This document shows positions 1-43,873 of a DNA stretch of 43,873 nucleotides, in pieces. The position numbers and the translations under genes were made by a program. This stretch comes from a virus. The notes below the pieces were generated by a model. The model was not told the DNA's origin and did no database searches. It was given only the letters and a program-made list of their open reading frames with translations. The DNA is taken from the IMG/VR virus record IMGVR_UViG_3300046809_000438, positions 1-43,873 of that record. One strand, written 5' to 3'. Numbering within the stretch: position 1 is the stretch's first letter; each line of letters starts with the position of its first letter.

Positions 1-127
1 AACGCACACCGCGCGACCCGCCACCCGAAAGGATGAACCCATGCAGGAATTCAACATGACCACCGCCGAACTGGAAAAGGTCCACGTCGAAATCGCCAAA
101 CTGATGGCCGAGACCAAAAAGCTCAAC
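1..127. repeat. Terminal direct repeat, left copy (circular join)
   Basis: Bases 1-127 are identical to bases 43747-43873. The repeat starts and ends inside ordinary sequence (an operon leader and the first part of a small gene), not at a packaging-like site. A 127-base overlap is the mark left when a circular molecule is assembled with 127-mers, so the natural unit is most likely a 43,746-bp circle. A true 127-bp terminal redundancy is a less likely alternative. Confidence 0.9.
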
Positions 128-238
128 GCCGAAGCCGGCAAGATGACCCGCGAAACCTTCTGGTATCCGGTGGCCGTCGCCACCGGCCTGATCACGGCGG
201 TGGCGACCATCACCGCGCTGTTGATCAAGTACATCTAA
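41..238 (+). CDS. Small coiled-coil membrane protein
   Basis: 65 residues. The first half is a charged amphipathic helix with heptad character (TTAELEKVHVEIAKLMAE), likely a short coiled coil. Residues about 41-64 form one hydrophobic transmembrane helix ending KYI. A GAAAGGA ribosome site lies 8 bases before the ATG. It is the first gene of the small-gene operon, downstream of the operator-promoter at 43705-43733 across the circular join. Short coiled-coil plus one-TM proteins are common in phages and are usually unassigned. I do not recognise a specific function. Confidence 0.8.
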   Translation: MQEFNMTTAELEKVHVEIAKLMAETKKLNAEAGKMTRETFWYPVAVATGLITAVATITALLIKYI

Positions 239-244
239 TCGACC

Positions 245-268
245 GGCCCCGCCCAGTGCGGGGCCTTT
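245..268 (+). terminator. Weak terminator-like hairpin
   Basis: An 8-bp stem (245-252 pairing with 258-265) with a 5-base loop is followed by only three T residues. It lies between the first and second small genes, with the next ribosome site directly after it. The short T run suggests attenuation rather than full termination. Confidence 0.45.
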
Positions 269-284
269 CGCCTTCTGGGGTCAC

Positions 285-587
285 ATGATCATTATTGAAC
301 GCTACACCCCGCCGTCGTCGGCCGCTTTGGCGCGCCTGAAAGATGACCTCGGCTGCACCAGTGACCAGATGGCCGCGCTGGCCGGTTTGGCCCAGGGTGG
401 CCAGTGGCGCAAGTACACCGGCGGCACTACGCCGCGCACCTTGGGCCTGCACATGCACTTTTGCATGGCCGCGCTGCTGACCCTGAGTGACGCCGAGGTG
501 GCCCGGGTTCTCGCCACCATGCGCGAGCAGGGGGCGACGGTCGAGGCCTGCGCGGTCGAGAGGCTGGCGTCACTCGCCCCGAACTGA
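285..587 (+). CDS. HTH-like small phage protein
   Basis: 100 residues. Residues about 12-60 (ARLKDDLGCTSDQMAALAGL, then WRKYTGG and a long helix) have the spacing of an XRE-type helix-turn-helix: a helix, a short turn after CTSDQMAALAG, and a recognition-like stretch around QWRKY. Start ATG with TGGGG before it. The role is probably DNA binding or regulation within the small-gene operon. The family call is by pattern only. Confidence 0.75.
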   Translation: MIIIERYTPPSSAALARLKDDLGCTSDQMAALAGLAQGGQWRKYTGGTTPRTLGLHMHFCMAALLTLSDAEVARVLATMREQGATVEACAVERLASLAPN

Positions 588-606
588 ATAGAAAGGAGTC
601 CGCCCT

Positions 607-882
607 ATGGCGACCTGTCTGTTTTGCACGGCGGCACCGGCCGACCTCGGCCGCTATTGCTCGGGCTGCTATGGCCGGGTGTTTCATGCCGACGGCGCGC
701 CCCTGGTGCTGGGCGATCCCGCCGACCCATGGCGGGCCTTCAACGCCGAGGCCGACCGGGCGCTGGCCGATCAAAAGTTGCATGCCGTCGTCGCGCCAAT
801 GATGGCGGCCCGCTGGTTTTTCCCGGTCAAGGTCGCGGCCTGGAAGCTGCGCCGTAAGCCGGCGCCCGTGCGTGACGCGTAA
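607..882 (+). CDS. Small zinc-ribbon-like protein
   Basis: 91 residues. The N-terminus carries CLFC and, 13 residues on, CSGC, a four-cysteine arrangement typical of a zinc ribbon or knuckle. The C-terminus is basic (KLRRKPAPVR). A strong GAAAGGAG lies before the ATG. The stop overlaps a GTGACGCGTAAC element at 872-883, a one-base variant of the palindromes found elsewhere in this genome. Function unknown; a nucleic-acid or protein adaptor role is an inference from the zinc motif. Confidence 0.75.
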   Translation: MATCLFCTAAPADLGRYCSGCYGRVFHADGAPLVLGDPADPWRAFNAEADRALADQKLHAVVAPMMAARWFFPVKVAAWKLRRKPAPVRDA

Positions 883-923
883 CGACCTGTCAACTTTTCG
901 CACACAAGAAAGGACCCCCCGCC

Positions 924-1130
924 ATGACTGAGCAACTAGAGCCGCTGGACGTGGATATCGCGTCAGTGCTGGCCCTGCAGGCCGAGATTGAGGCCGCGAT
1001 TAAGGTGTCGATGCGGCCGTTTCTCGGCCAGGCATTGACCGCTGAAAACGCTCCCGGGCTGCGCGCCGACCTGGTCGAGGCGATCTATTGTGTGTGCTTT
1101 CCGCCCGTGACCGTCGACCTGGACCAATAA
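924..1130 (+). CDS. Small hypothetical protein
   Basis: 68 residues, acidic and mostly helical (VLALQAEIEAAIKV), with no motif I recognise. It has its own ribosome site (AAGAAAGGA, 906-914). It lies in the co-directional small-gene operon with 41-base and 13-base gaps to its neighbours. Confidence 0.7.
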   Translation: MTEQLEPLDVDIASVLALQAEIEAAIKVSMRPFLGQALTAENAPGLRADLVEAIYCVCFPPVTVDLDQ

Positions 1131-1143
1131 GGAATCCCCTGTC

Positions 1144-4755: not shown

Positions 4756-5409
4756 ATGTCCATTATCGTGGTGGGGAACACCAAGGGCGGGATCGGCAAG
4801 TCGACCAATGCGGTACAGGTGGCGGTGGGTCGCGCGTGCCAGGGCAAGGACGTGCTGCTGGTCAATGCTGACCGGCAGTCGTCCTCGTCCAATGCGATCG
4901 ATCGGCGGGACGCCGCCGGCCTCACGCCGAGCGTGACCCTGGTCGCGTACCCGGACGGCCAGCAGCTGCGTACCCAGGTGCTGCGGCAGCTGGACAAGTA
5001 CGACGATATCGTTATCGATGCCGGCGGCCGTGACAGCTCGGCCTTTCGCCATGCGATGATGATCGCCGACGTCATGCTGGTGCCGATCGCGCCAGGCGAT
5101 TTCGAGCTGGACGCCCTGGAGGATGAACTGGTGCCGCTGATCCGCGAGATTCAGGCCTCGCGTGGCGACAACCCGCTGCCGATCTATGCCTACCTCAACA
5201 TGGCCGAGGCCAAGAAGTTTTCCAGCGACAACCTCGACACCCGCAAGTCGATCGAGAGCTTTCCCGAGCTGCAGCTGCTCGACCTGAACATCGTCAAGCG
5301 CAAGTCCATTGCGGCGGCGTCAGCGCGCGGTCTGGCCGTTAGGGAAATGAAGCCGCGCGACCCCAAGGCGGTCAAAGAAATTGACGAACTGCTGGCCGCG
5401 CTGTTTTAA
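4756..5409 (+). CDS. parA: ParA/ParF-type partition ATPase
   Basis: 217 residues, the usual length for small ParF-type (type Ib) ATPases that lack an N-terminal HTH. Deviant Walker A KGGIGKST at residues 10-17 with the signature lysine K10. A' motif VNADRQSSS with D39. Walker B IVIDAGG with D88. It would polymerise on or gradient over the nucleoid to move the prophage plasmid, with the RHH protein encoded next as its partner. Flanked by 11-bp repeat arrays on both sides. The repeats overlap its promoter, which predicts autoregulation. Strong evidence for plasmid maintenance. Confidence 0.95.
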   Translation: MSIIVVGNTKGGIGKSTNAVQVAVGRACQGKDVLLVNADRQSSSSNAIDRRDAAGLTPSVTLVAYPDGQQLRTQVLRQLDKYDDIVIDAGGRDSSAFRHAMMIADVMLVPIAPGDFELDALEDELVPLIREIQASRGDNPLPIYAYLNMAEAKKFSSDNLDTRKSIESFPELQLLDLNIVKRKSIAAASARGLAVREMKPRDPKAVKEIDELLAALF

Positions 5410-5417
5410 TCAAAAAC

Positions 5418-5483
5418 ATATCCTTTGGGTATTTATTTAATATCCAAATAAGATCTAAAAAGTATCAGGACAATATCCTATGG
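5418..5483. repeat. Tandem 11-bp repeats between parA and the RHH gene
   Basis: Six units in register start at 5418, 5429, 5440, 5451, 5462 and 5473: for example ATATCCTTTGG, ATATCCAAATA, GTATCAGGACA and ATATCCTATGG. The fifth unit contains the AGGA ribosome site, and the sixth runs over the ATG of the RHH gene, so binding could also block its translation start region. Confidence 0.85.
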
Positions 5484-5731
5484 CTGTTATTAAACGCGCT
5501 CCAAAACCCGCCAGCGATGCCCCCGAGGAAGCGCAAAAAGCCGCCCTGATCGCGGCGCCGGCGCCGGACAGCAAGGCCGAGAGCGTGCCGCGGGGCAAAC
5601 CGGTGAAATTTCCGGTCGGCCTGGCACCTGAGTTTTTAGCCGAAGTGGACGCCGCCGCCCAACGGATCGGACTGTCGCGCGTGGCGTTGATCAAGCTGGC
5701 CTTGCGCCGCTTGCTCGATGCCGGCGTATAA
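5480..5731 (+). CDS. Ribbon-helix-helix centromere-binding protein (ParG-like)
   Basis: 83 residues. A flexible Ala/Pro/Lys-rich N-terminus (residues 1-38) is followed by an RHH fold: strand KPVKFPVGL, helix PEFLAEVDAAAQRIGL, helix SRVALIKLALRRLLDAG. A basic mobile N-tail before an RHH domain is the known layout of ParG, which stimulates ParF through that tail. Overlap of the start codon with the last 11-bp repeat and position after parA support a partition role. It is the obvious candidate to bind all three repeat arrays. Confidence 0.85.
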   Translation: MAVIKRAPKPASDAPEEAQKAALIAAPAPDSKAESVPRGKPVKFPVGLAPEFLAEVDAAAQRIGLSRVALIKLALRRLLDAGV

Positions 5732-5750
5732 GGCCCAAAGGCCAGGCATT

Positions 5751-5788
5751 AAAAAGCCCCGCCAGGCATGACCCTGGCGGGGCTTTTT
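5751..5788. terminator. Bidirectional terminator between par and LuxR-type gene
   Basis: A perfect 16-bp stem including A5 and T5 tracts (5751-5766 with 5773-5788) and a 6-base loop. It separates the plus-strand par genes from the convergent minus-strand genes and serves both. Confidence 0.95.
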
Positions 5789-5810
5789 GGGCAGGCGGAA
5801 CGGGCGGCGA

Positions 5811-6224
5811 TCAATACCCGCGCCGGTTGCGCCGCTCGGCGTAGTGCGGGTCGAGGGTGGCGGGGCCCATGTGCTCGGTGGCCATGTCGAGCTGCGAGAT
5901 ATGGTCAGCATTGCTGTGGTTGAGATAGCTCAGGGCCGAATAACCCAGTCCGGCGACGAGGCCGATCACCATCAGGTGGCGCGGGCGCAGCACGCCAAGC
6001 AGAAAGGCTTTGGCAATCATGTGGGCCTGGGTCCGGGCCCCCAGCTTGCCGCGAATGCGCCCTTCGACCAGGGGCAGGGCTTCTTCATGCAGGCCCGTGG
6101 CCTGGGCTTGTTCGGGCGTGGTGTAGCCCTCGGCCATGCACGCCAGTAGGCCCAGTTCACGCTGGGTCAGGTTCTGGCCTGGGGTGATAATCAGGTTCTC
6201 GGAGACCTGTTCGCGAGTGGTCAT
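5811..6224 (-). CDS. LuxR-type HTH protein with C-terminal membrane helix
   Basis: 137 residues from the ATG at 6224. Residues 19-79 match the LuxR/GerE DNA-binding domain: LTQRELGLLACMAEGYTTPE, then QAQATGLHEEALPLVEGRI, KLGARTQAHMIAKAFLLGVL. Residues 83-101 (HLMVIGLVAGLGYSALSYL) form one transmembrane helix, followed by a 36-residue polar tail. There is no autoinducer-binding or receiver domain. A membrane-anchored LuxR-type HTH next to a prophage repressor is unusual and could link phage decisions to an envelope signal; that is inference. The recognition helix departs from the TVKxH norm (ALPLVEGRI), so DNA specificity or even binding needs proof. Confidence 0.8.
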   Translation of the reverse strand: MTTREQVSENLIITPGQNLTQRELGLLACMAEGYTTPEQAQATGLHEEALPLVEGRIRGKLGARTQAHMIAKAFLLGVLRPRHLMVIGLVAGLGYSALSYLNHSNADHISQLDMATEHMGPATLDPHYAERRNRRGY

Positions 6225-6252
6225 GGCTGTTTCAATCCGTTGAAAGGGGCGG

Positions 6253-6510
6253 TTACCCCAGGAGGTTGTTGGGTGCCTCAAACAGGCCGCCACTGGGCTC
6301 ACTTGAGAGAAAGCGATCGTGAGCCTTTTCGAGGATGTGCTGCGCCTTGAGCAGGTGGAATTTCAAGCGTTCGTGCTCATTTGCCCCGAGCTTTCCTTGC
6401 AGGAAATACAGGGTCACCGTATCCACGGCGCCGCCAATGTGGTGCGCGCTTTCAGAGAGGTGATCGCTTACGGCGTGGAAGGTGGCCGCGCACAGTGGAT
6501 TTTCGGGCAT
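6253..6510 (-). CDS. Small helical protein in the lysogeny operon
   Basis: 85 residues from the ATG at 6510, preceded by AAAAGGA. Start MPENPLCAATFHAVSDHLSE; helical throughout, with ALxxAQHIL-like helix LKAQHILEKAHDRFL. It overlaps no neighbour: the repressor gene ends at 6598 upstream and the LuxR-type gene starts at 6224 downstream. A 17-bp operator of the repressor type (6544-6560) lies in its promoter region, so it is probably regulated by the repressor. Small Pseudomonas proteins of this look are uncharacterised. Confidence 0.7.
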   Translation of the reverse strand: MPENPLCAATFHAVSDHLSESAHHIGGAVDTVTLYFLQGKLGANEHERLKFHLLKAQHILEKAHDRFLSSEPSGGLFEAPNNLLG

Positions 6511-6543
6511 TCGAGCGGATCCTTTTGACGAATTTATATACAA

Positions 6544-6560
6544 ATGCAACGTTTTTGTAT
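6544..6560. promoter_or_regulatory. Predicted repressor operator O1
   Basis: ATGCAA-N5-TTGTAT, a perfect inverted repeat apart from the purine/pyrimidine position, 34 bases before the minus-strand gene starting at 6510. Same form as the sites at 7297, 7359 and 11979. Confidence 0.6.
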
Positions 6561-6597
6561 TTTAACGACTTTGTAAGGACCTGTAACAGGGGTTTTT

Positions 6598-7233
6598 CTA
6601 GCGCGAATGCAAAATGGCGGTGACGCGACCAATAATCACTAAACTTTCATCTTTGGCGACCACCTCGCGGCCGTCATGGTTGATCACCTTGATCGAGCCG
6701 TCTAGCTCGGGCTCCAGCCAGCGAAACCAGATCCGGTTATCGACCAGCAAGGCGTACAGGTCACGCTCACGCGGGGTTTTATTGCTGTGATCGATCAGCG
6801 CCAGGTCGTTTTTGCTCAAGGTCGGCGACATGCTGGAATCGGTGGCCTTGACCAGGATGCAGCGTTCGGGCGTCAGGCCCAGCTGTTCAAAATAGAAGGC
6901 GCTAAACGCGGCGTTTTTGTCCGTGGCGATGCGCACGGCTGCGCCTTCGGCGTTAATCACCGAGGTGCCTTCCAGGCACGGGTAGCCGCTGTCCAGGTTG
7001 GTGCGGTAATCGTTGGTAATGCCCATCAGGTAACCCGGGGCCACTTCCAGGGCGGCGGCCAGCTCCAAAATCGTCGGTATTTTCGGCATGGCGCGCCCGC
7101 GTTCCCATGCGTGGTATTTCGAGGTACTGGGGCGGCTGGGCATGCGCGCGCAGACGTCATCGATTTTCATTTTCAAACGCTGACGGGCCTGGGCCAGGCG
7201 CTCGCTGATCGGCGACTCGGTGTCGATAATCAT
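6598..7233 (-). CDS. S24-family prophage repressor (CI-like)
   Basis: 211 residues, the usual size for a CI-type repressor; AAAAGGA before the ATG. Residues 11-71 form an XRE HTH (LAQARQRLKMKIDDVCARM, YHAWERGRAMPKIPTILELA). Residues 115-210 form an S24/LexA-like domain with DSSMSPTL (nucleophile candidate S134) and the GRVTAIL end. Two departures stand out: the usual catalytic lysine position after the DNRIWF strand reads R171, and no Ala-Gly or Cys-Gly cleavage pair is visible in the linker. It may therefore not self-cleave under RecA. Divergent from the early genes, with operators at 7297 and 7359 between. Confidence 0.9.
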   Translation of the reverse strand: MIIDTESPISERLAQARQRLKMKIDDVCARMPSRPSTSKYHAWERGRAMPKIPTILELAAALEVAPGYLMGITNDYRTNLDSGYPCLEGTSVINAEGAAVRIATDKNAAFSAFYFEQLGLTPERCILVKATDSSMSPTLSKNDLALIDHSNKTPRERDLYALLVDNRIWFRWLEPELDGSIKVINHDGREVVAKDESLVIIGRVTAILHSR

Positions 7234-7296
7234 AAAAGTCGGATCCTTTTGGGGGTGCTGTTTTACAATTTAGGTTTGTCAATTTATGACTAAATA

Positions 7297-7313
7297 GTAC
7301 AACCTTTTTGCAC
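7297..7313. promoter_or_regulatory. Predicted repressor operator O2
   Basis: GTACAA-N5-TTGCAC in the repressor/early intergenic region, nearer the repressor side. It fits RTRCAA-N5-TTGYAY exactly and probably serves autoregulation. Confidence 0.65.
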
Positions 7314-7344
7314 ATCACCATAAAAATCTGTTGCAACTGCGGTG

Positions 7345-7373
7345 TTGTGCGGCTAAAAATGCAAAAATATTGT
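7345..7373 (+). promoter_or_regulatory. Putative early promoter
   Basis: TTGTGC (7345-7350), 17-base spacer, TATTGT (7368-7373). The -10 overlaps operator O3 (7359-7375). The same TTGTGC -35 and an operator-covered -10 occur before 12031, which supports a shared repressed-promoter design. Confidence 0.45.
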
Positions 7374-7386
7374 ACTAATCAATATT
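7359..7386. promoter_or_regulatory. Predicted repressor operator O3 and overlapping dyad
   Basis: ATGCAA-N5-TTGTAC (7359-7375) overlaps a second dyad, AATATTG-N7-CAATATT (7366-7386, perfect 7-bp arms). Binding here would cover the early promoter -10. Confidence 0.65.
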
Positions 7387-7458
7387 AAATGTATTTTTAT
7401 GTTGGCTGATTGTATGACTCCCCAGCACCAAATTAGTGCCATAACTGTCCTGCCTATA

Positions 7459-7998
7459 ATGGAAAGCCGCGTCGCAGACCCGTTGGTCGTGACGGTGCGC
7501 GCACGCCTGGGGGTTGCGGGGGTCGGTCGCCTGGCCACCATTCTGTCGCTCTGCGGCCCCGCCGGGGCCAGCCTCGGTTATGCCGAATGGTTGGGCCTGC
7601 TGCAAGCCACGCCGCATGAATACGACCTCTTAGTCACCGTGCTGCGCGAGCTGCAGGTGTTCACCATCCAGGCCACCGATGAGCCGCCGCATATCCGGTT
7701 TGAGCCCGGCCCGGCCTGGGCGCCGACGTGGGCCGCGCGCCCGGCCCGCCTGACGCTGATGCCCGACGCCGCGGCGTGGGCGGCCTGGTGCCAAAGCGAG
7801 CTGGCCATGCCGGGCTGGCTGCTCGATACCGCCGAGACCCAAGCCCTGTTCCGCCGCTGGTGCGCCTCTAACGTCACCGTCGACGAGGCCACCCAGGCCG
7901 TGCTGCAGGCGGTCGCCGTGGGCGATGTCAGCCCGTCGACGATCCATCAGCAACTGGCCGCTGTCCGCAAGGCCGCCCTACACAAAGCCTCCCGCTAA
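7459..7998 (+). CDS. Early protein with winged-helix-like N-terminus
   Basis: 179 residues from the ATG at 7459. In-frame ATGs at 7399 and 7414 are possible, and none has a clear ribosome site. I prefer 7459 because GC-rich coding sequence begins there. Residues about 18-70 (GRLATILSLCGPAGASLGYA, then WLGLLQATPHEYDLLVTVLR) have a winged-helix look as in phage O-like replication proteins. The C-terminal part has ALFRRWCASNVTVDEATQAV, reminiscent of DnaT-type domains. It is the first gene under the repressed early promoter, where lambda-like phages place cro or replication genes. Role uncertain. Confidence 0.7.
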   Translation: MESRVADPLVVTVRARLGVAGVGRLATILSLCGPAGASLGYAEWLGLLQATPHEYDLLVTVLRELQVFTIQATDEPPHIRFEPGPAWAPTWAARPARLTLMPDAAAWAAWCQSELAMPGWLLDTAETQALFRRWCASNVTVDEATQAVLQAVAVGDVSPSTIHQQLAAVRKAALHKASR

Positions 7999-8013
7999 GG
8001 CGCGTCGCGCGCC
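7999..8013 (+). promoter_or_regulatory. GC-only hairpin after the first early gene
   Basis: GGCGCG-TCG-CGCGCC directly after the stop codon, with no T run after it. A near twin (GGCGCG-TTCG-CGCGCC) sits at 10552-10567 before the recombinase. Likely an RNA processing or stability hairpin. Confidence 0.45.
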
Positions 8014-8066
8014 GCCTCTCACCCCTCCGGCTGCCTGTCAGGTGGCCATGCAAGGAACCCGCCCCA

Positions 8067-8465
8067 ATGCTGATTATCGGCCTCTATGGGGGCTCGCCCG
8101 AGTCCCGCCACGAAATCCAACGCGCCCTGGTCCACCCGCAAAAACGCCCCGAGCTGCAGGCCTTCGCCTGCCCGATCGCGGTGCGCCTGGCGGGGTCGCG
8201 GGTGCACCACCTGCGTGCCGCCCTGGAGCAGCGCCCGGCCGGCGTCCAGGTGCTGCTGGTGACGCATGTGCAAACCGTCGAGGAAGCCCAGTTGCTCAAG
8301 GAGTACGGCGCGCGCATGTGGTACGTCATGGGCCAGCCCAGTGAAGTGATCCCGCTGGCCCAGGGCGACCTGCCGGTGACCGGCATGGTCGGCGGCTGCC
8401 GGCACTACCTCGACCCGCTGGAAGCGCTGAGCCAATCGCTGCTCGATGCGCGCCGGAGGCGCTGA
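8067..8465 (+). CDS. Hypothetical protein, degenerate nucleotide-kinase look
   Basis: 132 residues. The start MLIIGLYGGSPESRHEIQRAL resembles the first strand and helix of P-loop dNMP kinases, but the GK[ST] lysine is absent (GGSPESRH), so ATP-phosphate binding is doubtful. The rest (VQVLLVTHVQTVEEAQLLKE, ARMWYVMG, a final helix) fits an alpha/beta Rossmann-like fold. AAGGA lies before the ATG. The stop overlaps the next start. Function unknown. Confidence 0.65.
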   Translation: MLIIGLYGGSPESRHEIQRALVHPQKRPELQAFACPIAVRLAGSRVHHLRAALEQRPAGVQVLLVTHVQTVEEAQLLKEYGARMWYVMGQPSEVIPLAQGDLPVTGMVGGCRHYLDPLEALSQSLLDARRRR

Positions 8466-8668
8466 TGGCCTTGCCTCACTACGCCTACCGCGACCCGGCC
8501 CTGCAGGTGGAGGCGGACGAGCTGCACCGCATGGGCTGCCAGGGCTGCGCCCGGGCCGAGACCATGCTCGGCCTGTCGTTCTGCCCCAGTGACCTGCGTT
8601 ACCCCAGCTGCAAGGGCAACAAGCGCGACGGCTACCTGCTGGCTCGCGAGCATGGGGGTGAGGGATGA
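8465..8668 (+). CDS. Small cysteine-rich protein
   Basis: 67 residues. CQGC, then CPSDLRYPSC 21 residues later, gives four cysteines that could hold zinc, followed by a basic KGNKRDGYLLAREH segment. Translationally coupled at both ends (TGATG with the previous gene, ATGA with the Q gene). Small cysteine proteins directly before Q occur in several Pseudomonas phages as far as I recall; the role is unknown. Confidence 0.75.
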   Translation: MALPHYAYRDPALQVEADELHRMGCQGCARAETMLGLSFCPSDLRYPSCKGNKRDGYLLAREHGGEG

Positions 8669-24734: not shown

Positions 24735-24762
24735 GTGGGTGATCCAGTCTCCCGGAGTAGTT

Positions 24763-25857: not shown

Positions 25858-25859
25858 GC

Positions 25860-28827: not shown

Positions 28828-28844
28828 CCGGCGCCGCTCCATCC

Positions 28845-28873
28845 AAGCCACCCACCCGGGTGGCTTTCTTTTT
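28845..28873 (+). terminator. Terminator between sheath and tube genes
   Basis: AAGCCACCC (28845-28853) with GGGTGGCTT (28858-28866) and a T-rich tail. Ribosome site of the tube gene (GGGATATC region) follows. Confidence 0.8.
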
Positions 28874-28884
28874 GGGATATCAAA

Positions 28885-33118: not shown

Positions 33119-33136
33119 CGCCGTCTGAGAGTTCCC

Positions 33137-34778: not shown

Positions 34779-34785
34779 GGCGCTT

Positions 34786-35187: not shown

Positions 35188-35627
35188 GTGATATCAAAAC
35201 GGTATGGGTGGCCAGCACCGGTCAGGGTGACTGGCAGATCATCGCCGGCGCCCTGGCCAGCGGCGACGACCTGGAAACGTCGGTGTATATCAGCCTGTTT
35301 TCAGATCGCCAGGCCGATGCCGACGACGAGACCCCCGACGGCTCGACGGATCGCCGGGGCTGGTGGGGCGATGAGGATCAGCCGGTGAAACTAGGGTCGC
35401 GCTTGTGGCTGCTGTCGCGCTCCCGGCTTGACGACGACGCGGCCAAAATGGCGGTGATCTACGGCAAGGAGGCCTTGCAATGGCTGCTCGATGACAAGGT
35501 GGCGCAGGCCGTGACTGTCACGGCGACGATCCAGGGGCCTAAACAGCTCGATGTGGCCGTGACCGTCACGCGCAGCACCGGGACCAGTAGTTACCAGTTC
35601 GCCTGGGCCTGGGATCAGCTGGCCTGA
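35184..35627 (+). CDS. Baseplate protein (Mu gp46-like)
   Basis: 147 residues. ETSVYISLFSDRQADADDET, DRRGWWGDE, KLGSRLWLLSRSRLDDDAAK match PF07409 (GP46), the gp25-like wedge part of Mu-type baseplates. Confidence 0.95.
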   Translation: MSDIKTVWVASTGQGDWQIIAGALASGDDLETSVYISLFSDRQADADDETPDGSTDRRGWWGDEDQPVKLGSRLWLLSRSRLDDDAAKMAVIYGKEALQWLLDDKVAQAVTVTATIQGPKQLDVAVTVTRSTGTSSYQFAWAWDQLA

Positions 35628-35644
35628 CTCAACCCGTTTTTATG

Positions 35645-35668
35645 ACCGCCCGCGTGGCGGTTTTTTTT
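35645..35668 (+). terminator. Terminator between gp46-like and gp47-like genes
   Basis: ACCGCC (35645-35650) with GGCGGT (35656-35661) and eight T, followed by CGCCTGGAG, the same junction layout as at 13969 and 24683. Confidence 0.9.
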
Positions 35669-35685
35669 CGCCTGGAGTTTCCCTC

Positions 35686-36816
35686 ATGCCCTACCCACGT
35701 CCGCCGCTGTCGGTCCTGCGCTCGCAGGTATCGACCGACATTTCGGAGGGCCTCAAGACCGTCGACGGTCTGTTGCGGTTTTCCAATCTGGGGATTCTCG
35801 GGACCAGCGTCGCCGGTCTGGCGCACCAGCACTATGGCTTTCTGGCATGGATCGCCAAGCAGGCCAGCCCCTGGACCGCCACGGATGAATACCTCGACGC
35901 CTGGGCCGCGCTGAAAAACGTCTTTCGCGACCCGGCGCTGGTGGCCAGCTTGCAAGCGTCCTGGCTGGGCACACCCGGGGCGCTGTTGCCCCAGGGCACC
36001 GAGGTGGTAATCGGCAACGGGGTCTACTACACCACGGCGGCGGATGCGCTGGCCGATGGGGCGGGGCATGTGTCGGTGACGGTGGTCGCCCGGCTCGCCG
36101 GCGCGGCGGGGAATGCCGAGGTCGGCAGCCTGGTGACGCTGACCAGCGCGGTCGACGGCATTCAGTCGAGCGGCGCGGTAACGGCCAGCGTGGCCATCGG
36201 CACCGACGTCGAGAAAAACGAGCCATTGCGCACGCGGATGCTGGCCGCCTATCAGGCCCCCGCACGCGGCGGCACGGCGCTCGACTACAAGTCCTGGGCC
36301 ATGAACTGCCCGGGCGTGACGCGGGCCTGGGTGCAGCCGATGGGGGCCGGGCCGGGCACGGTCGTGGTCTACGTGATGTTTGACCTGGTCAACAGCGCGA
36401 ACAACGGTTTCCCTGTTGGCACGAATGGTCTGTCCTCGCTGGATAACCGGGCGATCCCGGCCACCACCGCCGCCGGTAATCAGCTGGTGGTGGCCAACAT
36501 GCTGTTTGCCAGCCAGCCGGTGACGCCGTTGGTGTACACCTGCGCACCGGCGCCCAACCCGATCCCCTTCACCATCACCGGTCTGCTCGGCGCGTCGGCT
36601 GCGCTCAAGGCGGCGGTGGCCGATGCGATTGCCCAGGTGATGATCGATGAGGGCGATCCGGCGCCCGTGGCCGGCTCGGTCGTCGAGCTGGACAGCCTCA
36701 ACGCGGCGATCAGCGCCGTACCGGGCACCGCCGGGTTTGTGATCACCAGTCCGGTGGCGAACATCGCCAACGTGCTGGGCCAGTTGCCGACGGTGGGGGC
36801 CATCACCTATGGCTAA
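35686..36816 (+). CDS. Baseplate J-like protein (Mu gp47-like)
   Basis: 376 residues with CTGGAG upstream. RPPLSVLRSQVSTDISEGLK, GLAHQHYGFLAWIAKQASPW, ARGGTALDYKSWAMNCPGVT RAWV and a C-terminal domain match PF04865. Forms the baseplate wedge with gp46- and gp48-like proteins. Overlaps the next gene by 8 bases. Confidence 0.95.
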   Translation: MPYPRPPLSVLRSQVSTDISEGLKTVDGLLRFSNLGILGTSVAGLAHQHYGFLAWIAKQASPWTATDEYLDAWAALKNVFRDPALVASLQASWLGTPGALLPQGTEVVIGNGVYYTTAADALADGAGHVSVTVVARLAGAAGNAEVGSLVTLTSAVDGIQSSGAVTASVAIGTDVEKNEPLRTRMLAAYQAPARGGTALDYKSWAMNCPGVTRAWVQPMGAGPGTVVVYVMFDLVNSANNGFPVGTNGLSSLDNRAIPATTAAGNQLVVANMLFASQPVTPLVYTCAPAPNPIPFTITGLLGASAALKAAVADAIAQVMIDEGDPAPVAGSVVELDSLNAAISAVPGTAGFVITSPVANIANVLGQLPTVGAITYG

Positions 36817-37405
36817 GCCGGTGTTTACCGATGCGGACTACGCCCAGGCGCTGAGCAATTTGCTGCCCCCGGGCAAAGCCTGGAACCGTGACCCCGACAG
36901 CGTACAAGCCCAGGCGGTGAGCTGTTATGCGCCGACCTTCCGGCGCAACAGCGACGACGCCCTGGCGCTGCTGATCGATGCCTTCCCCGCGACCGCCGTC
37001 AACCTGCTGCCCGAGTGGGAGGCCACCCTCGGCCTGCCCGATCCCTGCGCCGGCGTCTCGCCGACCTTGCAGGGGCGCCGCGCGCAGGTGGTGGCGCGTT
37101 TTTCCGCCCATGGCGGCCAGTCCGTCAGTGACTTCCAGACCTACGCGGCGGGCTTGGGTTACAGCGTCACGGTCAAGCAGTTCGCCCCATTCCGCATGGG
37201 GCAAAGCGTCTGCGGCTCGGCGCTGGGCGGTCTCGATTGGTTTTACACCTGGGCGATTGAAGCCCAAGGCAACCCGGTCACGCCCTTTTCCCTGGGCCGC
37301 TCGACCGTGGGCGAGCCCCTGGCCAGTTGGGGCAACGCGGTCCTGGAGTGCGAACTCCGGGCGATTGCCCCCGCGCACAGCATTTTGCAATTCCACTATT
37401 CCTAA
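36809..37405 (+). CDS. DUF2313 tail protein (Mu gp48-like)
   Basis: 198 residues. DADYAQALSNLLPPGKAWNR, FPATAVNLLPEWEATLGLPD, LQGRRAQVVARFSAHGGQSV match DUF2313 (YmfQ-like), the last wedge protein connecting the baseplate with fibres. Confidence 0.95.
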   Translation: MAKPVFTDADYAQALSNLLPPGKAWNRDPDSVQAQAVSCYAPTFRRNSDDALALLIDAFPATAVNLLPEWEATLGLPDPCAGVSPTLQGRRAQVVARFSAHGGQSVSDFQTYAAGLGYSVTVKQFAPFRMGQSVCGSALGGLDWFYTWAIEAQGNPVTPFSLGRSTVGEPLASWGNAVLECELRAIAPAHSILQFHYS

Positions 37406-37422
37406 CGAATCCCAGGGGTTCT

Positions 37423-39138
37423 ATGTATCAGATTGATAACGGCACCGCTGCGTCTGTTCAGCCGGCCAGTACCGCCTTTGGCTCGGCGGGCTTTTTTACC
37501 GATGGCAATCCGGCCGCCGGCCAGGCGGCCACGGTGTTGCCCGCCGAGTTTATGAACTCGCTGATGCTGGAAAATCTCAATGTCTTGAGTGCGGCCGGGA
37601 TTGCGCCGTCCAAAAACACGTTTAACCAGTTGGCGCTGGCGATCAAGACCATTATCCAGGGCGGCGCGACCACCTACGCGGCGGATACGGGCGTGGCCAA
37701 TGCCTATGTGCTGGCCCTGACCCCAGCGATCACGGCCTACACCGGCACCACCAAGGTGCGCGGCCTGGTCGCGCACACCAATACCGGCGCCTGCACCCTG
37801 GATGCCGGCGGCGGCCCCAAGGCCTTGGTCGGTCTGGCGCATGCGGCGCTGCAAGGCGGGGAAATGTTCGCCGGCGGCTATTTCGAGGCGCAGTACAACG
37901 TCGCCCTGGGCAAGTTTATTTTGCTCTGGTGTACCGGTGCCGCCGAGCAAGTGGCCAACGCCACGCAAAGCCAGCACGCGCTGACGCTCGGCCAGGCGCA
38001 GTCGGGCGCGTCCACCTATGCCGTCGATACCGGCGTGGCCAATGCTTATGTGCTGGCCCTGACCCCGGCAGTCACGGCCTACAACAGCCCGCTTAAGGTG
38101 CGCGGCCAGGTGAGCACCACCAACACCGGCGCCAGTACGTTGGATGCCGGCGCCGGGGCCAAGGCCTTGGTCGGCCTGGCGCATGCGGCGCTGCAAGGTG
38201 GCGAGATGGTCGCCGGCGGCTATTTCGAAGCCGAGTACAACGTGACGCTGGGCAAGTTTATCTTGCTGTTCTGCACCGGCGCGCCGGAGCAGGTCGGCCT
38301 AGCCACCCAGCCCCTGCACGCGGTGCAGCTGGGGCAGATCGCCGGCCTGGTGACCGGCAACGTCACCAACATCAGCGCCGACACCTCGCTGACCGCCGCG
38401 CAGAAGGGCCTGGTCATTATTGACGCGACGTCTGGGAACCGTGCAGTCAACCTGCCGGCGACCTCTGGCGGCATCATGGATTTCATCGTCCGGCGCTTGG
38501 ATAACACCGCCAACACGTTGGCGGTGAGTGCCGTCGGTACTGACAAAATCAAGTTCCACACCCACTTGAATGCGGCCGGCTATTCGTTCTTGTACCTGAT
38601 GGGTGCGGGCGATTACTGGCACTTGCGCAGCGATGGCGCGGGCAACTGGTGGCCGGTCAGTCGCTACGACAACACGCCGCTGGGGCGGCCGGTCCTGGAT
38701 ACCACCACCGTGTTTAACCCCGGCGGTAATGGGGCCTTAAATGGTTCGATCCTGACGCGGGCCCTCTGGCCTTGGTTGTGGGACCACGCGCAGCAGTCGG
38801 GGATGCTGACCACGGAAGCCGCGCGCACCGGCATGGAAGGCGGCTGGACCTCGGGCGACGGGTCGACCACGTTCCGCTGTCCCGATGCGCGCGGTACGTT
38901 CTGGCGGCCGCTGGATGAATCGCACGGGGTTGACCCGAGTCGTGTGGGGGGTAGCTCGCAGGCCAGCATGCTCGGCTCTCACGCCCACGGCTACGGCGTC
39001 GGGGTCAACGTGGCGGCGGGTAGCGGCAACACGGTGATTCAAGGCGGTATTACCCCTATCGCCACAACGGCGAACTTCGGCGGCACTGAAACGCGCCCAA
39101 TCAACATTGCCTATCCGGGCCGAATCAAATTGATCTGA
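37423..39138 (+). CDS. Tail fibre protein
   Basis: 571 residues, ATG 37423 with AGGGG. The N-terminus attaches to the baseplate. Residues 84-311 are two copies of a 114-residue unit (see repeat). The C-terminal third resembles a phage collar/receptor tip: FRCPDARGTFWRP, GSHAHGYGVGV and TETRPINIAYPGRIKL, with the H-x-H pair seen in metal-binding fibre tips. It should decide host range, with the Tfa-type protein as chaperone. Confidence 0.9.
   Translation: MYQIDNGTAASVQPASTAFGSAGFFTDGNPAAGQAATVLPAEFMNSLMLENLNVLSAAGIAPSKNTFNQLALAIKTIIQGGATTYAADTGVANAYVLALTPAITAYTGTTKVRGLVAHTNTGACTLDAGGGPKALVGLAHAALQGGEMFAGGYFEAQYNVALGKFILLWCTGAAEQVANATQSQHALTLGQAQSGASTYAVDTGVANAYVLALTPAVTAYNSPLKVRGQVSTTNTGASTLDAGAGAKALVGLAHAALQGGEMVAGGYFEAEYNVTLGKFILLFCTGAPEQVGLATQPLHAVQLGQIAGLVTGNVTNISADTSLTAAQKGLVIIDATSGNRAVNLPATSGGIMDFIVRRLDNTANTLAVSAVGTDKIKFHTHLNAAGYSFLYLMGAGDYWHLRSDGAGNWWPVSRYDNTPLGRPVLDTTTVFNPGGNGALNGSILTRALWPWLWDHAQQSGMLTTEAARTGMEGGWTSGDGSTTFRCPDARGTFWRPLDESHGVDPSRVGGSSQASMLGSHAHGYGVGVNVAAGSGNTVIQGGITPIATTANFGGTETRPINIAYPGRIKLI
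37672..38355 (+). repeat. Two 342-bp units in the tail fibre gene
   Basis: Residues 84-197 and 198-311 of the fibre repeat: DTGVANAYVLALTPA, KVRG, TNTGA-TLDAG, KALVGLAHAALQGGEM, AGGYFEA-YNV-LGKFILL in both. Protein identity is high, and DNA stretches are nearly identical in places, so the duplication is fairly recent or kept alike by recombination. Confidence 0.9.
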
Positions 39139-39146
39139 GGTGTTTT

Positions 39147-39674
39147 ATGTTCATTTACTTGTTTGATGCGCTGGGTATTTTAGCGGGTCCGGTGTCGCTG
39201 CCTGAGGTCCCGGGGCTTGGCGTTCAGGTGCCGGGTAATGCCGTCGAGCTGGACGAGCCGTTGCCGGCGCCGGATCCGGGCCAGGCCTGGGCCCTGGTCA
39301 ACGCGGAGCCGGTGCAGCTCGCCGATCATCGCGGCCTGGTCTACAGCACGGACACCGGCGCCGCGCTGGAGTGGGGCGAGCTGGGCGAACTCCCCAGCGG
39401 CTATACGGCGCTGCCGTGCCCGGGCGCGCATTACGTCTGGAGTGGCGGCGCGTGGGTGCTGGATGCGGCGGCGGCCGCCCTGGCCCAGCGCGATCAGTTG
39501 CTGGTGGCGGCCAACCAGGCCACCGCCGGCATGGCGAACGCCTACATTGCCGGGCTGCTGGATGATGCGGACACGGCCACGTTCAAGGCGTTCGCGGCCT
39601 ACCAGCTGGCACTGAACAAGATCGAGCAGCAGCCTGGTTACCCGGCCACCATTGCGTGGCCGCCCGCGCCATAA
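39147..39674 (+). CDS. Tail fibre assembly protein (Tfa-like)
   Basis: 175 residues. GNAVELDEPLPAPDPGQAWA, WSGGAWVLDAAAAALAQRDQ and the C-terminal QLALNKIEQQPGYPATIAWP are Tfa (PF02413) landmarks. Chaperone for the fibre tip. Last gene of the late operon. Confidence 0.9.
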   Translation: MFIYLFDALGILAGPVSLPEVPGLGVQVPGNAVELDEPLPAPDPGQAWALVNAEPVQLADHRGLVYSTDTGAALEWGELGELPSGYTALPCPGAHYVWSGGAWVLDAAAAALAQRDQLLVAANQATAGMANAYIAGLLDDADTATFKAFAAYQLALNKIEQQPGYPATIAWPPAP

Positions 39675-39763: not shown

Positions 39764-40138
39764 TGATCATCAATTTTCTTGCCGCGTTCGGACGATGGAG
39801 AGTACGATCCGGGGAACCTATAACGACCGATTGGTGATGGAAGGTCGGGGCGGGAGACGGCGATCGGGGTGGAAAAATTCAATTTTTTTTGTATTTTTGC
39901 ATTCCATTGCGCGCGCGTCCTGCGCTAAGATGCAACGCATAGGCGGCCCATAGAAGGCGCCAAAGCAGCAAAAAAGGCTTTAAATTCAGGAATTTAGCTT
40001 CGCAGAAAAGAAAAAACCCCAGGCCCTGGCAGGCTTGAGGTTTTTGGGGCCACCCGCAAAAAACTCTTTGCAATGACCTAGATGAAGGTTTGAGTTTATG
40101 CGTGTCGGCCCACTGATGCAAGCGCACAGGGGCAAGGC
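39764..40138 (+). other. rep leader region
   Basis: About 375 bases without a convincing gene. Contains an AT-rich patch (39878-39900) with TTGTAT and TTGCAT operator-like half sites, TAAGAT (39926-39931, a possible -10), and a C-rich/G-rich segment (40013-40052) able to fold. ATG at 40098 begins a short frame ahead of repA in another frame, possibly a leader peptide as in IncFII plasmids. An antisense copy-control RNA is expected here but not proven. Confidence 0.4.
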
Positions 40139-41164
40139 ATGCAGAGCTTTAACGAAGCTTGCAGTGTGCTTCCACGGATGTGGGGTACGCGCGAGTATGG
40201 TTTTCCGGGGCTTTACCTGGGAACAGGCAACCGATGCGGGCACGATCCGCAGAAACTGGCCGTTGATCGGCTGGATCTGCACGCCCCGCGCGGCGGCAAA
40301 TGGCCGCGTCTTATTCAAGACGGGATCGATCGCATTCAGGCGTATTTCAATGACGCCGACGCGCTGGAGCCGCTGGCCCACCTCTCCAAAAAACACAACA
40401 AAGACGGCACACCGCGGCAAAACCGCAGCGAGGCGCGCGAAGGGCATGCCCTGGTGCTGTCGGTGATCTTTACCTACCTCGACCTCAAGTCGTTGCGGGT
40501 GGGCTACTACACCACCGCCGCCACGTTCGTCAGCATTTCCTTTCTGGACATCGCCCGGCGTTGCGCCATGACCTGCCAGGTCAAGGCGCGCGACGACGCG
40601 GGCCAGATCATCGCCGGCAAATACAAAGAAGTGCCCACCTCGCGTTTCTGGCGCACCGTGCGCGACCTCAAAAAAGCCGGCGCCATCAGCGTGTTCGAGC
40701 AGTACGAGGAAAAGGACGCCGGCAAGCGCGCCCTGACCGCGATCAAGGCCTTTAGCGCAAAATTCCTGCGCCTGATTACCGGCTGGAACCCCAAGCGTAT
40801 CGAGAAAGCGCGCAAGAACGCGAATGGCCGTGTGATGGGCTTCCTGCTGGGCGCGAGCGACGCCGGCGTCGAGAACGTCAACCAGCGTAAGCGCTTGGTT
40901 AAAGAGATTGAGTCGGCCAACGTCAAGCGCGAGCTGTTCGGCGCGCCCACCGCCAAAAACCGCCAGCCGGCCGTCGGTGACGCCCGCCAGTCTATCGAGG
41001 ACGCGCTGCAGCAAGAATACGCCGAGCATGAAGCCCAGGTGCTGGCCAGCATCACCGCCGCCCTGGGCCGGCCACCGCGCGGCATGGAGCAGCTGAAACT
41101 GCAGGCCCAGCATGGCCACCTCAGCCGCGACGACTTTAGGCGTCGACGACTCGCCGGCAGCTAG
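40139..41164 (+). CDS. repA: Plasmid replication initiator, IncFII RepA family
   Basis: 341 residues with GGGGCAAGG before the ATG. The core matches the IncFII/L/M RepA pattern (PF02387): REGHALVLSVIFTYLDLKSL with LRVG, then VPTSRFWRTVRDLKKAGAIS, then ALTAIKAFSAKFLRLITGW followed by a basic helix KRIEKARKNANGR. It would initiate plasmid replication at an origin that in this family lies downstream of repA. This explains how the prophage persists without integrating. Confidence 0.8.
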   Translation: MQSFNEACSVLPRMWGTREYGFPGLYLGTGNRCGHDPQKLAVDRLDLHAPRGGKWPRLIQDGIDRIQAYFNDADALEPLAHLSKKHNKDGTPRQNRSEAREGHALVLSVIFTYLDLKSLRVGYYTTAATFVSISFLDIARRCAMTCQVKARDDAGQIIAGKYKEVPTSRFWRTVRDLKKAGAISVFEQYEEKDAGKRALTAIKAFSAKFLRLITGWNPKRIEKARKNANGRVMGFLLGASDAGVENVNQRKRLVKEIESANVKRELFGAPTAKNRQPAVGDARQSIEDALQQEYAEHEAQVLASITAALGRPPRGMEQLKLQAQHGHLSRDDFRRRRLAGS

Positions 41165-42058
41165 TCCGCCACCCTCCCCCGCTTCCCGCCATCCTCCCCC
41201 TGAACGCCAGGGCGCCCCGCTATGGGCGCTTTCTGGCGTTTCTGCGTTGATCCCTCCCCCATTCCCCCGCCATACGTGCCAGGCCCGCCCAAAACGGCCG
41301 TAGCGCACGACAAACACCCCTCCCGGCCCATGCAACACCGCACAAATGCCGGCGCGTGCGCCGCGCATAGAAATTTAACTCACACCCCCCCAATATTAAG
41401 TCGCTCTAGAGTTGATTTAAGTCCGTGTTGGTCTTTCCCGGTATACAACCAGAGAAGCCTGGCCAGGCTGCGCCTGTCCTAGTAATGCCTCGGCGATGCC
41501 GAGAACGGTTTGTTTACGCCTGAGCTTCGCCCAGGCTACTCAGCCGCCCGCAATTCGTGCCTACGGCACGGCGGGGCCCACGCAGCTCGCCGGGGCGCCC
41601 GCCGCCGTTTCGTCAGTAAGGCGCCTTACTCCCCCTGCAGGCCGGCCGATCCCTCGGCACGCCGCACCACCACCGTATCGGCCTTTGGGTGAACAGGCGC
41701 CGGCCGTTGGCCTGGTCGGCGCGCAAGCGCGCCAGCGATCAGTAACGGGGGTGCCCTGTCGAGTTTTGTTCGGCCCTGGCCACGTCTGCGCCTGCCTGGG
41801 CGGTTTCCCGGTTAATGCCAGGTCAGCGGTGCACCTGGTCAATGGTGCGGCCTGGGCGGCGTTCTGCGCGGTAGCTCGGCGATCGAGCGGGCCAGGCGTT
41901 CCGGCCGGCGCATGGCGCGCCGTTGTTAACAGGCTCAAAGATCCTAAATAAAGCTGTACGTGTAGGATCTTTGAGCCTATAGTTCGTTCCGTTGGTGGCA
42001 TGCAGAAAGCCACTCGACTTCTGAGGGGGCTCGTCATGCCGCCGACGGAGAACGAGAT
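41165..42058. other. Palindrome-rich non-coding region; candidate origin
   Basis: Nearly 900 bases after repA. A strong hairpin (AACGCCAG 41203-41210 with CTGGCGTT 41233-41240, inner GCGCCC/GGGCGC) directly after repA resembles a CIS-type stop. Then an AT-richer patch (41390-41425), and a series of exact palindromes: 41456-41469, 41489-41503, 41556-41570, 41615-41630 and 41718-41733. Open frames here lack ribosome sites and look like shadows. In IncFII plasmids CIS and ori follow repA, so the origin is probably here. Confidence 0.55.
41931..41978. repeat. Long inverted repeat B (16-bp perfect arms)
   Basis: AGGCTCAAAGATCCTA (41931-41946) and its exact reverse complement (41963-41978) around a 16-base spacer. 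No T run. Resembles repeat A in size and spacing; with it, flanks the rep/origin segment. Confidence 0.85.
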
Positions 42059-42350: not shown

Positions 42351-42366
42351 GGGGCCGCAAGGCCCC
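42351..42366 (+). promoter_or_regulatory. GCAA-tetraloop hairpin
   Basis: GGGGCC-GCAA-GGCCCC right after the HsdS-like stop. No T run; probably limits or stabilises the mRNA between the two genes. Confidence 0.5.
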
Positions 42367-42399
42367 GGACTCTCAACCGAACACATAGGGGATACAGGC

Positions 42400-42810
42400 A
42401 TGCACATTGATTTGCCGCCGATCGCGGATCAGCTGGAACTGATTTTCGAGCAGGCCACCAAGGACGCCATCGTCCAGCTGAAACACAATCTCCAGGCGCC
42501 GCGTGTGCCTGGGCAAACCGAGGTGGACGAAAGCCTTTACCCGCGCACGCATTTATTGCGTGAGCGTGAGGGCTGGGAGCCGCCGCACCGCGACATTGTG
42601 GGCGCCTACTTTCGCCACTTTCAGGCGCATTTTCCCCAGTACGGCACCGACGCCAAGCTGGCCGAGCTGCTGGGACTGTCGGCCGCTCGGCGGGTGCGCG
42701 CCTTCAAGGACGGCAGCAAGCGGGCGCCTTATGGGATCTGGCGGCGTTTTCTAGTGATGACCGGCCGCGCGCCGCAGGAAATTATCCAGGTCCTGGCGTT
42801 TATGGGGTAA
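42400..42810 (+). CDS. HTH-containing plasmid protein
   Basis: 136 residues from ATG 42400 (AGGGG and ACAGG upstream). N-terminal helix (PPIADQLELIFEQATKDAIV), then an HTH-like end: GTDAKLAELLGLSAARRVRA, FKDGSKRAPYGIWRRFLVMT. Probably a DNA-binding regulator of the rep region. No named family. Confidence 0.65.
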   Translation: MHIDLPPIADQLELIFEQATKDAIVQLKHNLQAPRVPGQTEVDESLYPRTHLLREREGWEPPHRDIVGAYFRHFQAHFPQYGTDAKLAELLGLSAARRVRAFKDGSKRAPYGIWRRFLVMTGRAPQEIIQVLAFMG

Positions 42811-42829
42811 ACCGCGGCAATCTGCGCGG

Positions 42830-42896
42830 GTATCTATTAGGTGTTTTTTGTGTATCTAAAGGATATCTAATGGATATCATAAGGATATTAAAAAGG
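42830..42896. repeat. Third 11-bp repeat array
   Basis: GTATCTAAAGG (42852), ATATCTAATGG (42863), ATATCATAAGG (42874) and ATATTAAAAAGG (42885) run in 11-base register. A further GTATCTATTAG lies 22 bases earlier (42830). Same family as the arrays around parA. Placed before the 42969 gene. Confidence 0.85.
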
Positions 42897-42968
42897 TGTT
42901 GATTTTGCGGTGAGCCGTCGGCATGATGTGACGCATTGATTAAGCCCTTTGAGTCGGAGCGCGGCGCG

Positions 42969-43658
42969 ATGAAAGACCCCCTAGACCATCAGACCCTTGA
43001 CCTGGTCGAAGCCGCCAAGCGGCCCTTGAGTCCCGCCGAGCGGCAGAAGCGTCGCCGCGACAGGGTCCGCGAGCTGAAAGCCGCCGAAGGCCTGCGCACG
43101 GTGCTGCTGTCCGAAGACGAGCGCCGCCTGGTGGAGCAACTGCGCGAGCAGAAAGCCGCCCAGGCGCCCGAGGGTGTGCAGGCGATCGCCCTGACCCAAA
43201 CGGATCGTATGGTGTTGAGCCTGGGGCTGTTGGCCCATGAGGATCTGCACCACCGGCCCAAAGACTGGGAAGCCACGAAAAAACCCGGGTTTGACGCGCT
43301 ACTGCGCAAGCTGTGGCCCGAGGGGGATAACGGCCGTTACCTGGCCGAGCCTGAGCGCAGCACCCGCCGGCCATCCGCGTTTTTGCGCGACCAGTTGGAC
43401 GCCGCGCGGGTGGAAAATCAGCGCCTGAAAAGCGCCCTGCAGGAGATTGCCGCCGAAGTCGGCGGCGGGGTTGCCGCGCCCGTACCAGCCTCAGCGTCGG
43501 AAGTGGCCGAGCTGCGGCAACGGATCGCGAGCCTAGAGCAAGAAAACAGCTTGCTGGAAGGCGAGCGCAACGGTGCGCTGGGGGCGGTCAAGGTGTACGT
43601 GGCGCGTTTACAGAACGCCGAGCTGTCGACCGACTACCGCCGGCAGCCGGGCGAATGA
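42969..43658 (+). CDS. DNA-binding-like coiled-coil protein
   Basis: 229 residues from ATG 42969 (CGGAG upstream). N-terminal basic part (PLSPAERQKRRRDRVRELKA) leading to GLRTVLLSEDERRLVEQLRE, which has an RHH-like strand then helix. C-terminal coiled coil (RVENQRLKSALQEIAAEV, ELRQRIASLEQENSLLEGER). The layout recalls KfrA-type plasmid proteins, which bind DNA near their promoter and form filaments. The 11-bp array just upstream is a natural operator. Family assignment uncertain. Confidence 0.7.
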   Translation: MKDPLDHQTLDLVEAAKRPLSPAERQKRRRDRVRELKAAEGLRTVLLSEDERRLVEQLREQKAAQAPEGVQAIALTQTDRMVLSLGLLAHEDLHHRPKDWEATKKPGFDALLRKLWPEGDNGRYLAEPERSTRRPSAFLRDQLDAARVENQRLKSALQEIAAEVGGGVAAPVPASASEVAELRQRIASLEQENSLLEGERNGALGAVKVYVARLQNAELSTDYRRQPGE

Positions 43659-43704
43659 CCGGACGTGACGCGTAACGGCGGACTAGAATAATGCGGGTGG
43701 GGGC

Positions 43705-43733
43705 TTGTCTAGTGTACCTTAAAGGTACATAAT
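43705..43733 (+). promoter_or_regulatory. Operator-controlled promoter of the small-gene operon
   Basis: TTGTCT (43705-43710), 17-base spacer, CATAAT (43728-43733). The spacer holds TGTACCTTAAAGGTACA (43713-43729), 8-bp perfect arms about one central base. A regulator bound here would shut the operon starting at base 41 across the join. This palindrome differs from the RTRCAA operators and from the 11-bp repeats, so a different regulator is implied. Confidence 0.65.
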
Positions 43734-43746
43734 GTGCCTCAAGGGA

Positions 43747-43873
43747 AACGCACACCGCGCGACCCGCCACCCGAAAGGATGAACCCATGCAGGAATTCAA
43801 CATGACCACCGCCGAACTGGAAAAGGTCCACGTCGAAATCGCCAAACTGATGGCCGAGACCAAAAAGCTCAAC
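43747..43873. repeat. Terminal direct repeat, right copy
   Basis: Exact copy of bases 1-127. Should be trimmed when closing the circle; it contains a second, truncated copy of the first gene. Confidence 0.9.
43787..43873 (+). CDS. Partial second copy of the first small gene
   Basis: First 29 codons of the coiled-coil membrane protein, cut by the end of the window. Not a separate gene; it is the overlap of the circular join. Confidence 0.9.
   Translation, partial: MQEFNMTTAELEKVHVEIAKLMAETKKLN

Follow-up and report, generated by a model that had tools for sequence, protein, structure and literature searches.

A probable Pseudomonas phage-plasmid pairing a lambda-type head and a Mu-type tail with a circular replicon under predicted antisense control

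Phage and plasmid genes share a single 43,873-base virus record (IMG/VR IMGVR_UViG_3300046809_000438; this whole stretch of DNA is hereafter the window), which raises the question of what kind of element it is and how it would be maintained. A preliminary description had read it as a closed circular phage-plasmid with a lambda head, a Mu tail and an IncFII-type replicon, a combination not known as a described group. Bases 1-127 match 43747-43873 exactly and the window therefore closes into a circle, in line with that description:

1-127, same as 43747-43873, no strand: end repeat and circular join (exact match; unit 43,746 bp)

Repeats of about 127 bp are the usual assembler overlap at circular joins; this one thus speaks for a circle but is no evidence on the virion ends or of a biological terminal repeat. 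The window holds no tRNA genes and no recognised host genes, and chromosomal junctions are absent from the record. Packaging, head, tail and lysis genes are all present, homology adds a plasmid-type replication initiator and partition genes, and relatives show end overlaps as well. What the sequences show is the gene content, a circular assembly, the recurrence of the set in relatives, exchange of modules, a conserved antisense promoter and a covarying hairpin; the episomal state, virion production, antisense action, a resolvase role and the host are inferred. Very probably the window is the whole genome of a temperate phage-plasmid with a contractile tail, Pseudomonas being the most likely host; in its prophage state it would persist as a low-copy circular plasmid.

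Virion and lysis genes were assigned as follows:

14155-14700, plus: endolysin (lysis module, 14155-15631)
15230-15631, plus: Rz-like spanin (same lysis module)
17724-26420, plus: lambda-type head module with TerS, TerL, gpW, portal, S49 protease, major head protein (MCP) and head closure (PHROGs, phmmer)
17724-18371, plus: TerS (phrog_57)
18307-20427, plus: TerL (phrog_15, E 1e-207)
24676-25857, plus: MCP (PHROGs)
26085-26420, plus: head closure (PHROGs)
27056-39674, plus: Mu-type contractile tail with gp38-like protein, sheath, tube, tape measure (TMP), N, P, 45-48 and fibre S (PHROGs, phmmer)
27340-28827, plus: sheath (phrog_165, E 6e-182)
28885-29256, plus: tube (PHROGs)
29661-31691, plus: TMP (PHROGs)
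35148-35627, plus: Mu 46 homologue (phmmer against Mu)
37327-39138, plus: fibre S (PHROGs, phmmer against Mu)
39147-39674, plus: last ORF of the Mu-type tail module

With phmmer we retrieved homologues of lambda A (2e-59), W (4e-7), B (2e-64), C (4e-57) and E (6e-28) in lambda order, and of Mu gp38 (3e-9), L (2e-96), M (6e-9), N (3e-15), P (2e-42), 45, 46, 47, 48 and S in Mu order, both sets of matches being collinear. PHROGs assigned sheath, tube, tape measure, hub, wedge and fibre across 27340-39138. Comparison with the Mu and lambda records left Mu T and the lambda tail genes unmatched in the window. Every module named in the preliminary description was found where it had been placed, including the lambda-family head genes at 17724-26420; the tail that it called full, at 27056-39674, is collinear from 38 to S and near-complete.

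The presumed replicon genes follow the tail module:

40139-41164, plus: RepA, 341 aa, presumed initiator of plasmid replication; the family is uncurated (full-length plasmid homologues)
41222-41482, plus: small gene immediately 3' of repA, retained in the RepA group (conservation)

RepA is presumed to be an initiator from synteny and from the names that PGAP gives to Aeromonas proteins 40% identical to it; its relatives reside mainly on plasmids, and it is present in 2 of the 400 Pseudomonas genomes searched. The proposed IncFII type did not hold by family. None of 17 RepA homologues matched IncFII_repA (PF02387), even at E 10, and the Rfam CopA model (RF00042) was unmatched in the window, the positive-control IncFII plasmid being found at 99 bits; the assignment to the IncFII family is thus not supported. 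An hhalign comparison with R1 RepA gave E 0.054, which is within noise, unrelated window proteins scoring at least as well. IncFII_repA was found in none of 200 Pseudomonas and 369 class-level genomes, and there was therefore no divergent IncFII set for profile comparison. Searches of RepA against Pfam, NCBIfam, PDB and Foldseek returned nothing usable, and its weak predicted structure (mean pLDDT 62) is a mixture of helix and strand without a confident solved-fold match. Neither convincing iterons near repA nor a credible Rfam family in the window, at gathering and relaxed thresholds, was detected. What stood of the IncFII claim is its principle, through a predicted CopA/Inc-like antisense RNA in the repA leader. 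Judged from sequence comparison, replicon control would resemble that of IncFII/IncI plasmids, yet the replicon forms a family of its own and IncFII membership is not supported.

This predicted RNA of about 85 nt, just 5' of repA, is the new element here. The region upstream of repA is the best conserved noncoding DNA of the RepA group, and comparison of leaders delimited the following:

40004-40121, minus: predicted antisense RNA gene, ~85 nt (promoter and covarying hairpin conservation)
40121-40116, minus: -35 element TTGCAT
40098-40093, minus: -10 element TAAACT, after a 17-nt spacer
about 40087 to 40004, minus: predicted start, and end at a terminator hairpin with T-run

Of 20 leaders, 19 have the minus-strand promoter TTGC[AT]T-N17-TAAACT or a close variant; the spacer is always 17 nt long in these, although its sequence varies; the one leader devoid of the pattern is that of Aeromonas, and the Halomonas variant has TTGCCC as its -35 element. 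Downstream of the promoter lies a terminator hairpin with a T-run; the hairpin folds in all 20 leaders. Across 12 distinct hairpins, 77 of 84 cells are paired and two-sided (compensatory) change is evident at 7/7 stem positions; of 2000 shuffles, none attained the observed pairing, none the observed variety of pair types and 5 the two-sided count, in a test that ignores relatedness. A covariance model scored 69-88 bits and found the full site at RepA leaders only, among 26 sources including phages Mu and lambda, the hits being mostly model members or near copies. Outside the model, a record with a distant RepA (L153, 35%) has a like hairpin 0.2 kb upstream (E 0.16) with the target loop UUGGCG, which is also that of pPL-38ph, Halomonas and Aeromonas. 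PMC10724649 gives UUGGCG as the target-loop motif of the IncI plasmid ColIb-P9 (Asano et al. 1998, as cited there), and places an antisense RNA opposite the rep leader in IncI-complex, IncL/M and IncFII plasmids (ColIb-P9, R1); the window differs from IncFII in its RepA, outside IncFII_repA, and in the unmatched CopA model. That the window encodes such an RNA, complete with its terminator hairpin, as in IncFII and IncI-complex control, is a prediction. A generic promoter scan of the window alone did not list the antisense promoter, so the case rests on conservation. Inspection by eye of the compared leaders revealed no consistent pseudoknot partner of the leader loop, such as the site close to the rep start in IncI-complex and IncL/M control, and only some members seem to have a leader peptide ahead of repA.

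Maintenance and lysogeny genes lie on the other side of the circular join:

4756-5409, plus: ParA partition ATPase (phrog_164, E 3e-35; 89% identical to pPL-38ph ParA)
5480-5731, plus: small ribbon-helix-helix-like protein, presumed ParB-like partner of ParA (weak phrog_18157 repressor match)
6598-7233, minus: CI-like repressor, lysogeny control (HTH and S24 peptidase fold)
7399-9099, plus: early genes 7399-7998, 8067-8465 and 8665-9099 (kept in the phage-plasmid backbone)
10656-11948, plus: tyrosine recombinase, 430 aa (phrog_1, PF00589, alignment of relatives)
13325-13714, plus: transcriptional regulator, conserved backbone gene (phrog_536)

ParA matches NF041546 under the family cut-off. 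The ParA/RHH partition system proposed at 4756-5731 is clear for ParA; its second gene has the repressor match only, co-occurs with ParA in pPL-38ph, Au-Pse12 and PARCL1pr, and is followed by a terminator-like inverted repeat at 5751-5788. A backbone of RepA, CI, three early genes, recombinase and g25 recurs, largely collinear, on pPL-38ph (Pseudomonas lundensis, NZ_CP062157, 38 kb), pHN2 (Pseudomonas sp. HN2), phage PARCL1pr and Delftia pHQS1, and ParA is part of this shared backbone. Both pPL-38ph and pHN2 resemble the window in RepA (72-75%) and in the antisense-RNA leader, with a ParA that is divergent in pHN2; their virion, however, has a P2-like tail and a fused protease/capsid gene, and lacks the lambda head and Mu tail. 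PARCL1pr and pHQS1 combine the backbone with a siphovirus virion and HK97-type head, and a Halomonas plasmid with yet another virion retains most backbone genes. The host is probably Pseudomonas, the genus of the cultured strains that carry the nearest replicon relatives (pPL-38ph, pHN2, Au-Pse12).

These genes suggest how the element may be kept. RepA would initiate plasmid replication, and the antisense RNA, on the opposite strand of the repA leader, would bind the leader stem-loop and limit RepA synthesis, thereby setting copy number and incompatibility. ParA and the RHH protein would segregate the plasmid copies, and the CI-like repressor would hold the lytic genes off until induction, upon which the lambda-type terminase would package DNA into lambda-type heads bearing Mu-type tails.

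The tyrosine recombinase, missing from the preliminary description and conserved in the backbone, bears on whether the circle might instead be the excised or replicating form of an ordinary integrating temperate phage, with the recombinase as its integrase and RepA and ParA as accessories. The listed ORF, from 10413, is 81 codons too long, since relatives align from its residue 82 and place the true start at about 10656; the gene is intact, and its catalytic residues R246, K272, H336, R339, H362 and Y371 are invariant in the alignment, which speaks for an integrase. Related virion modules also travel with integrase-type genes, namely an excisionase in Citrobacter phage phiNP and an integrase-like gene at the contig end in two virion relatives devoid of RepA (G007, G017). 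In the latter two, however, the recombinase homologue is internal and the integrase-like ORF, identified by eye rather than by family search, is a second gene, so the internal recombinase need not be an integrase. Moreover, RepA, ParA and the recombinase stay together on elements deposited as circular plasmids, RepA relatives are mostly plasmid-borne, and in PLSDB the recombinase family occurs mostly on plasmids of 36-48 kb, the size of phage-plasmids, from Pseudomonas, Delftia, Halomonas, Vibrio and Aeromonas. An integrating phage is accordingly unlikely, and the recombinase of the phage-plasmid probably serves dimer resolution rather than genome integration; neither an att nor a res site was identified for it. 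The deposited pHN2 is a tandem dimer whose two halves have identical protein accessions; such a dimer is either a state that a resolvase would normally resolve or an assembly product.

A linear phage-plasmid with hairpin ends, like N15, whose sequence the assembly permuted circularly, is suggested by two elements with the virion set of the window: ppDSJ01 (Pantoea stewartii DC283) and the Orbaceae lpD02 plasmid, which carry a lambda-type head and a Mu-type tail in the same order (sheath 57% and 50%). Both differ from the window in being linear, with a protelomerase and CyRepA1 replicon as in N15, and ppDSJ01 has ParA/ParB. The window carries neither CyRepA1 nor a protelomerase, its recombinase matches Phage_integrase only, RepA homologues lie on records deposited as circular, and ppDSJ01 was not among the matches listed for the window RepA search; a linear form is therefore very improbable. 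phiNP likewise has the lambda head and Mu tail in this order, with an annotated excisionase and replication protein O and no plasmid replicon. The virion set is thus already known on phage-plasmids and the replicon type is known with other virions (pPL-38ph, pHN2, pHQS1), so the combination is undescribed only as the exact set: in the collections searched, we found no description of this virion paired with this circular replicon. At the DNA level, the window gave zero matches to phages and only pieces of ~250 bp to plasmids. Typed phage-plasmid groups comprise AB, P1, N15 and SSU5-related elements, mostly enterobacterial; other phage-plasmids are singletons or fall into sparse clusters (PMC12977533). 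Mycobacteriophage prophages kept extrachromosomally by RepA and parABS resemble the circular phage-plasmid proposed here; they differ in hosts and, for some, in RNA initiators instead of RepA, and no antisense RepA control appears in the excerpted text (PMC7157519).

Scans of IMG/VR with TerL, RepA and gp47, followed by whole-record searches, revealed that the window is not one of a kind and that the group is wider than this genome. Five further records (G001, G002, G004, G005, G006; 41.2-44.6 kb), of which at least three are circular, carry the whole module set; their end overlaps reach 127 bp in G004 and G006, 123 bp in G001 and 19 bp in G002. They and an 18-kb fragment (G003) bear a like head and/or tail with RepA, and sample 3300047322 holds fragments identical to the window. 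Content, closure and these five relatives support reading the window as a circular phage-plasmid whose head is lambda-type and whose tail is Mu-type. Of 400 Pseudomonas genomes searched, none had a close relative of TerL (E ≤ 1e-200); a sole plasmid match to TerL at 80-90% proved to be a 40-residue piece in Sphingomonas. A metagenomic chimera of phage and plasmid replicon, conceivable for an IMG/VR assembly, is scarcely credible because independent relatives from different records repeat the module set and the junction of Mu tail, RepA leader and RepA (L008, L014, L015, L016/L102, L101, G004, G005; 63-98% tail identity).

The five full relatives resemble the window in sheath (76-95%) but not in RepA (40-79%), ParA (24-47%) or CI (36-47%). 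Conversely, window ParA is 89% identical to that of pPL-38ph versus 24-27% to those of its own-virion members G001, G002 and G005, and window RepA 72% to that of pPL-38ph versus 41% to that of G004 (sheath 78%). Such identities indicate that maintenance and immunity genes are exchanged among the five records and the window, and that replicon and partition modules are reassorted irrespective of the virion type. It has already been proposed that replication and partition genes are often transferred, perhaps to escape incompatibility (PMC10879196). This Pseudomonas-centred lineage thus appears to be an unnamed group of phage-plasmids whose common replication, partition and repressor kit is visibly swapped between unrelated virions, entirely different virus shells. 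We are inclined to regard the RepA family and its antisense RNA as an undescribed replicon class that would define compatibility groups among Pseudomonas, Delftia, Halomonas and Aeromonas phage-plasmids and travel as one cassette among lambda/Mu, P2-like and HK97/siphovirus virions; phages as close as 95% in sheath could then differ in replicon, partition and immunity type and share a cell; the predicted RNA would make phage-plasmid incompatibility readable from a short loop sequence. G006 is such a close phage, with 95% identity to the window in sheath and 40%, 47% and 36% in RepA, ParA and CI, respectively. Its DNA aligns at ~91% over the tail and 76% over the repA leader and start (to 40280), is unmatched over the rest of repA, and aligns again at 85% from 41483.

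Comparison of the window with G006, one of the IMG/VR relatives that carry its whole module set, revealed near-identical phages, with a tail at 91% at the DNA level. Their differences fall almost exactly on the repA body (window 40280-41483) and the ParA-RHH-CI stretch (window 5093-8317), a distribution in which replicon, partition and immunity appear to have been exchanged. The virion relatives G007 and G017, both devoid of RepA, each bear two tyrosine-recombinase-like genes, one internal and of the phage-plasmid type and the other at the contig end, which suggests transitions from a phage-plasmid to an integrative state. Phages may not be the only carriers of the replicon, as judged from a 3.6-kb locus (L153) where none of the window phage genes was found and where the hairpin AAAAAGCCCCGG-TTGGCG-CCGGGGCTTTTT (~1255-1285) lies upstream of a distant Pseudomonas RepA (35%). 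The Pseudomonas plasmid pHN2, as deposited (81,985 bp), consists of two tandem copies of a ~41-kb phage-plasmid.

On visual inspection, the window's S24-type repressor (6598-7233, minus strand) retains the Ser (SMSP), whereas Arg seemingly replaces the catalytic Lys of LexA, rendering SOS self-cleavage doubtful. An exact direct repeat is placed ahead of early genes:

2028-2066 and 2292-2330, 39 nt, spacing 264 bp

Its core, ATGAAAGGAACCCCC, occurs four times at ≤2 mismatches (0.05 expected); the repeated segment may have a regulatory role or serve in ribosome binding. High G+C at third codon positions probably accounts for the following long minus-strand ORFs:

39986-41368, minus, opposite repA
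29706-30953, minus, opposite the tape measure gene
24610-25839, minus, opposite the capsid gene
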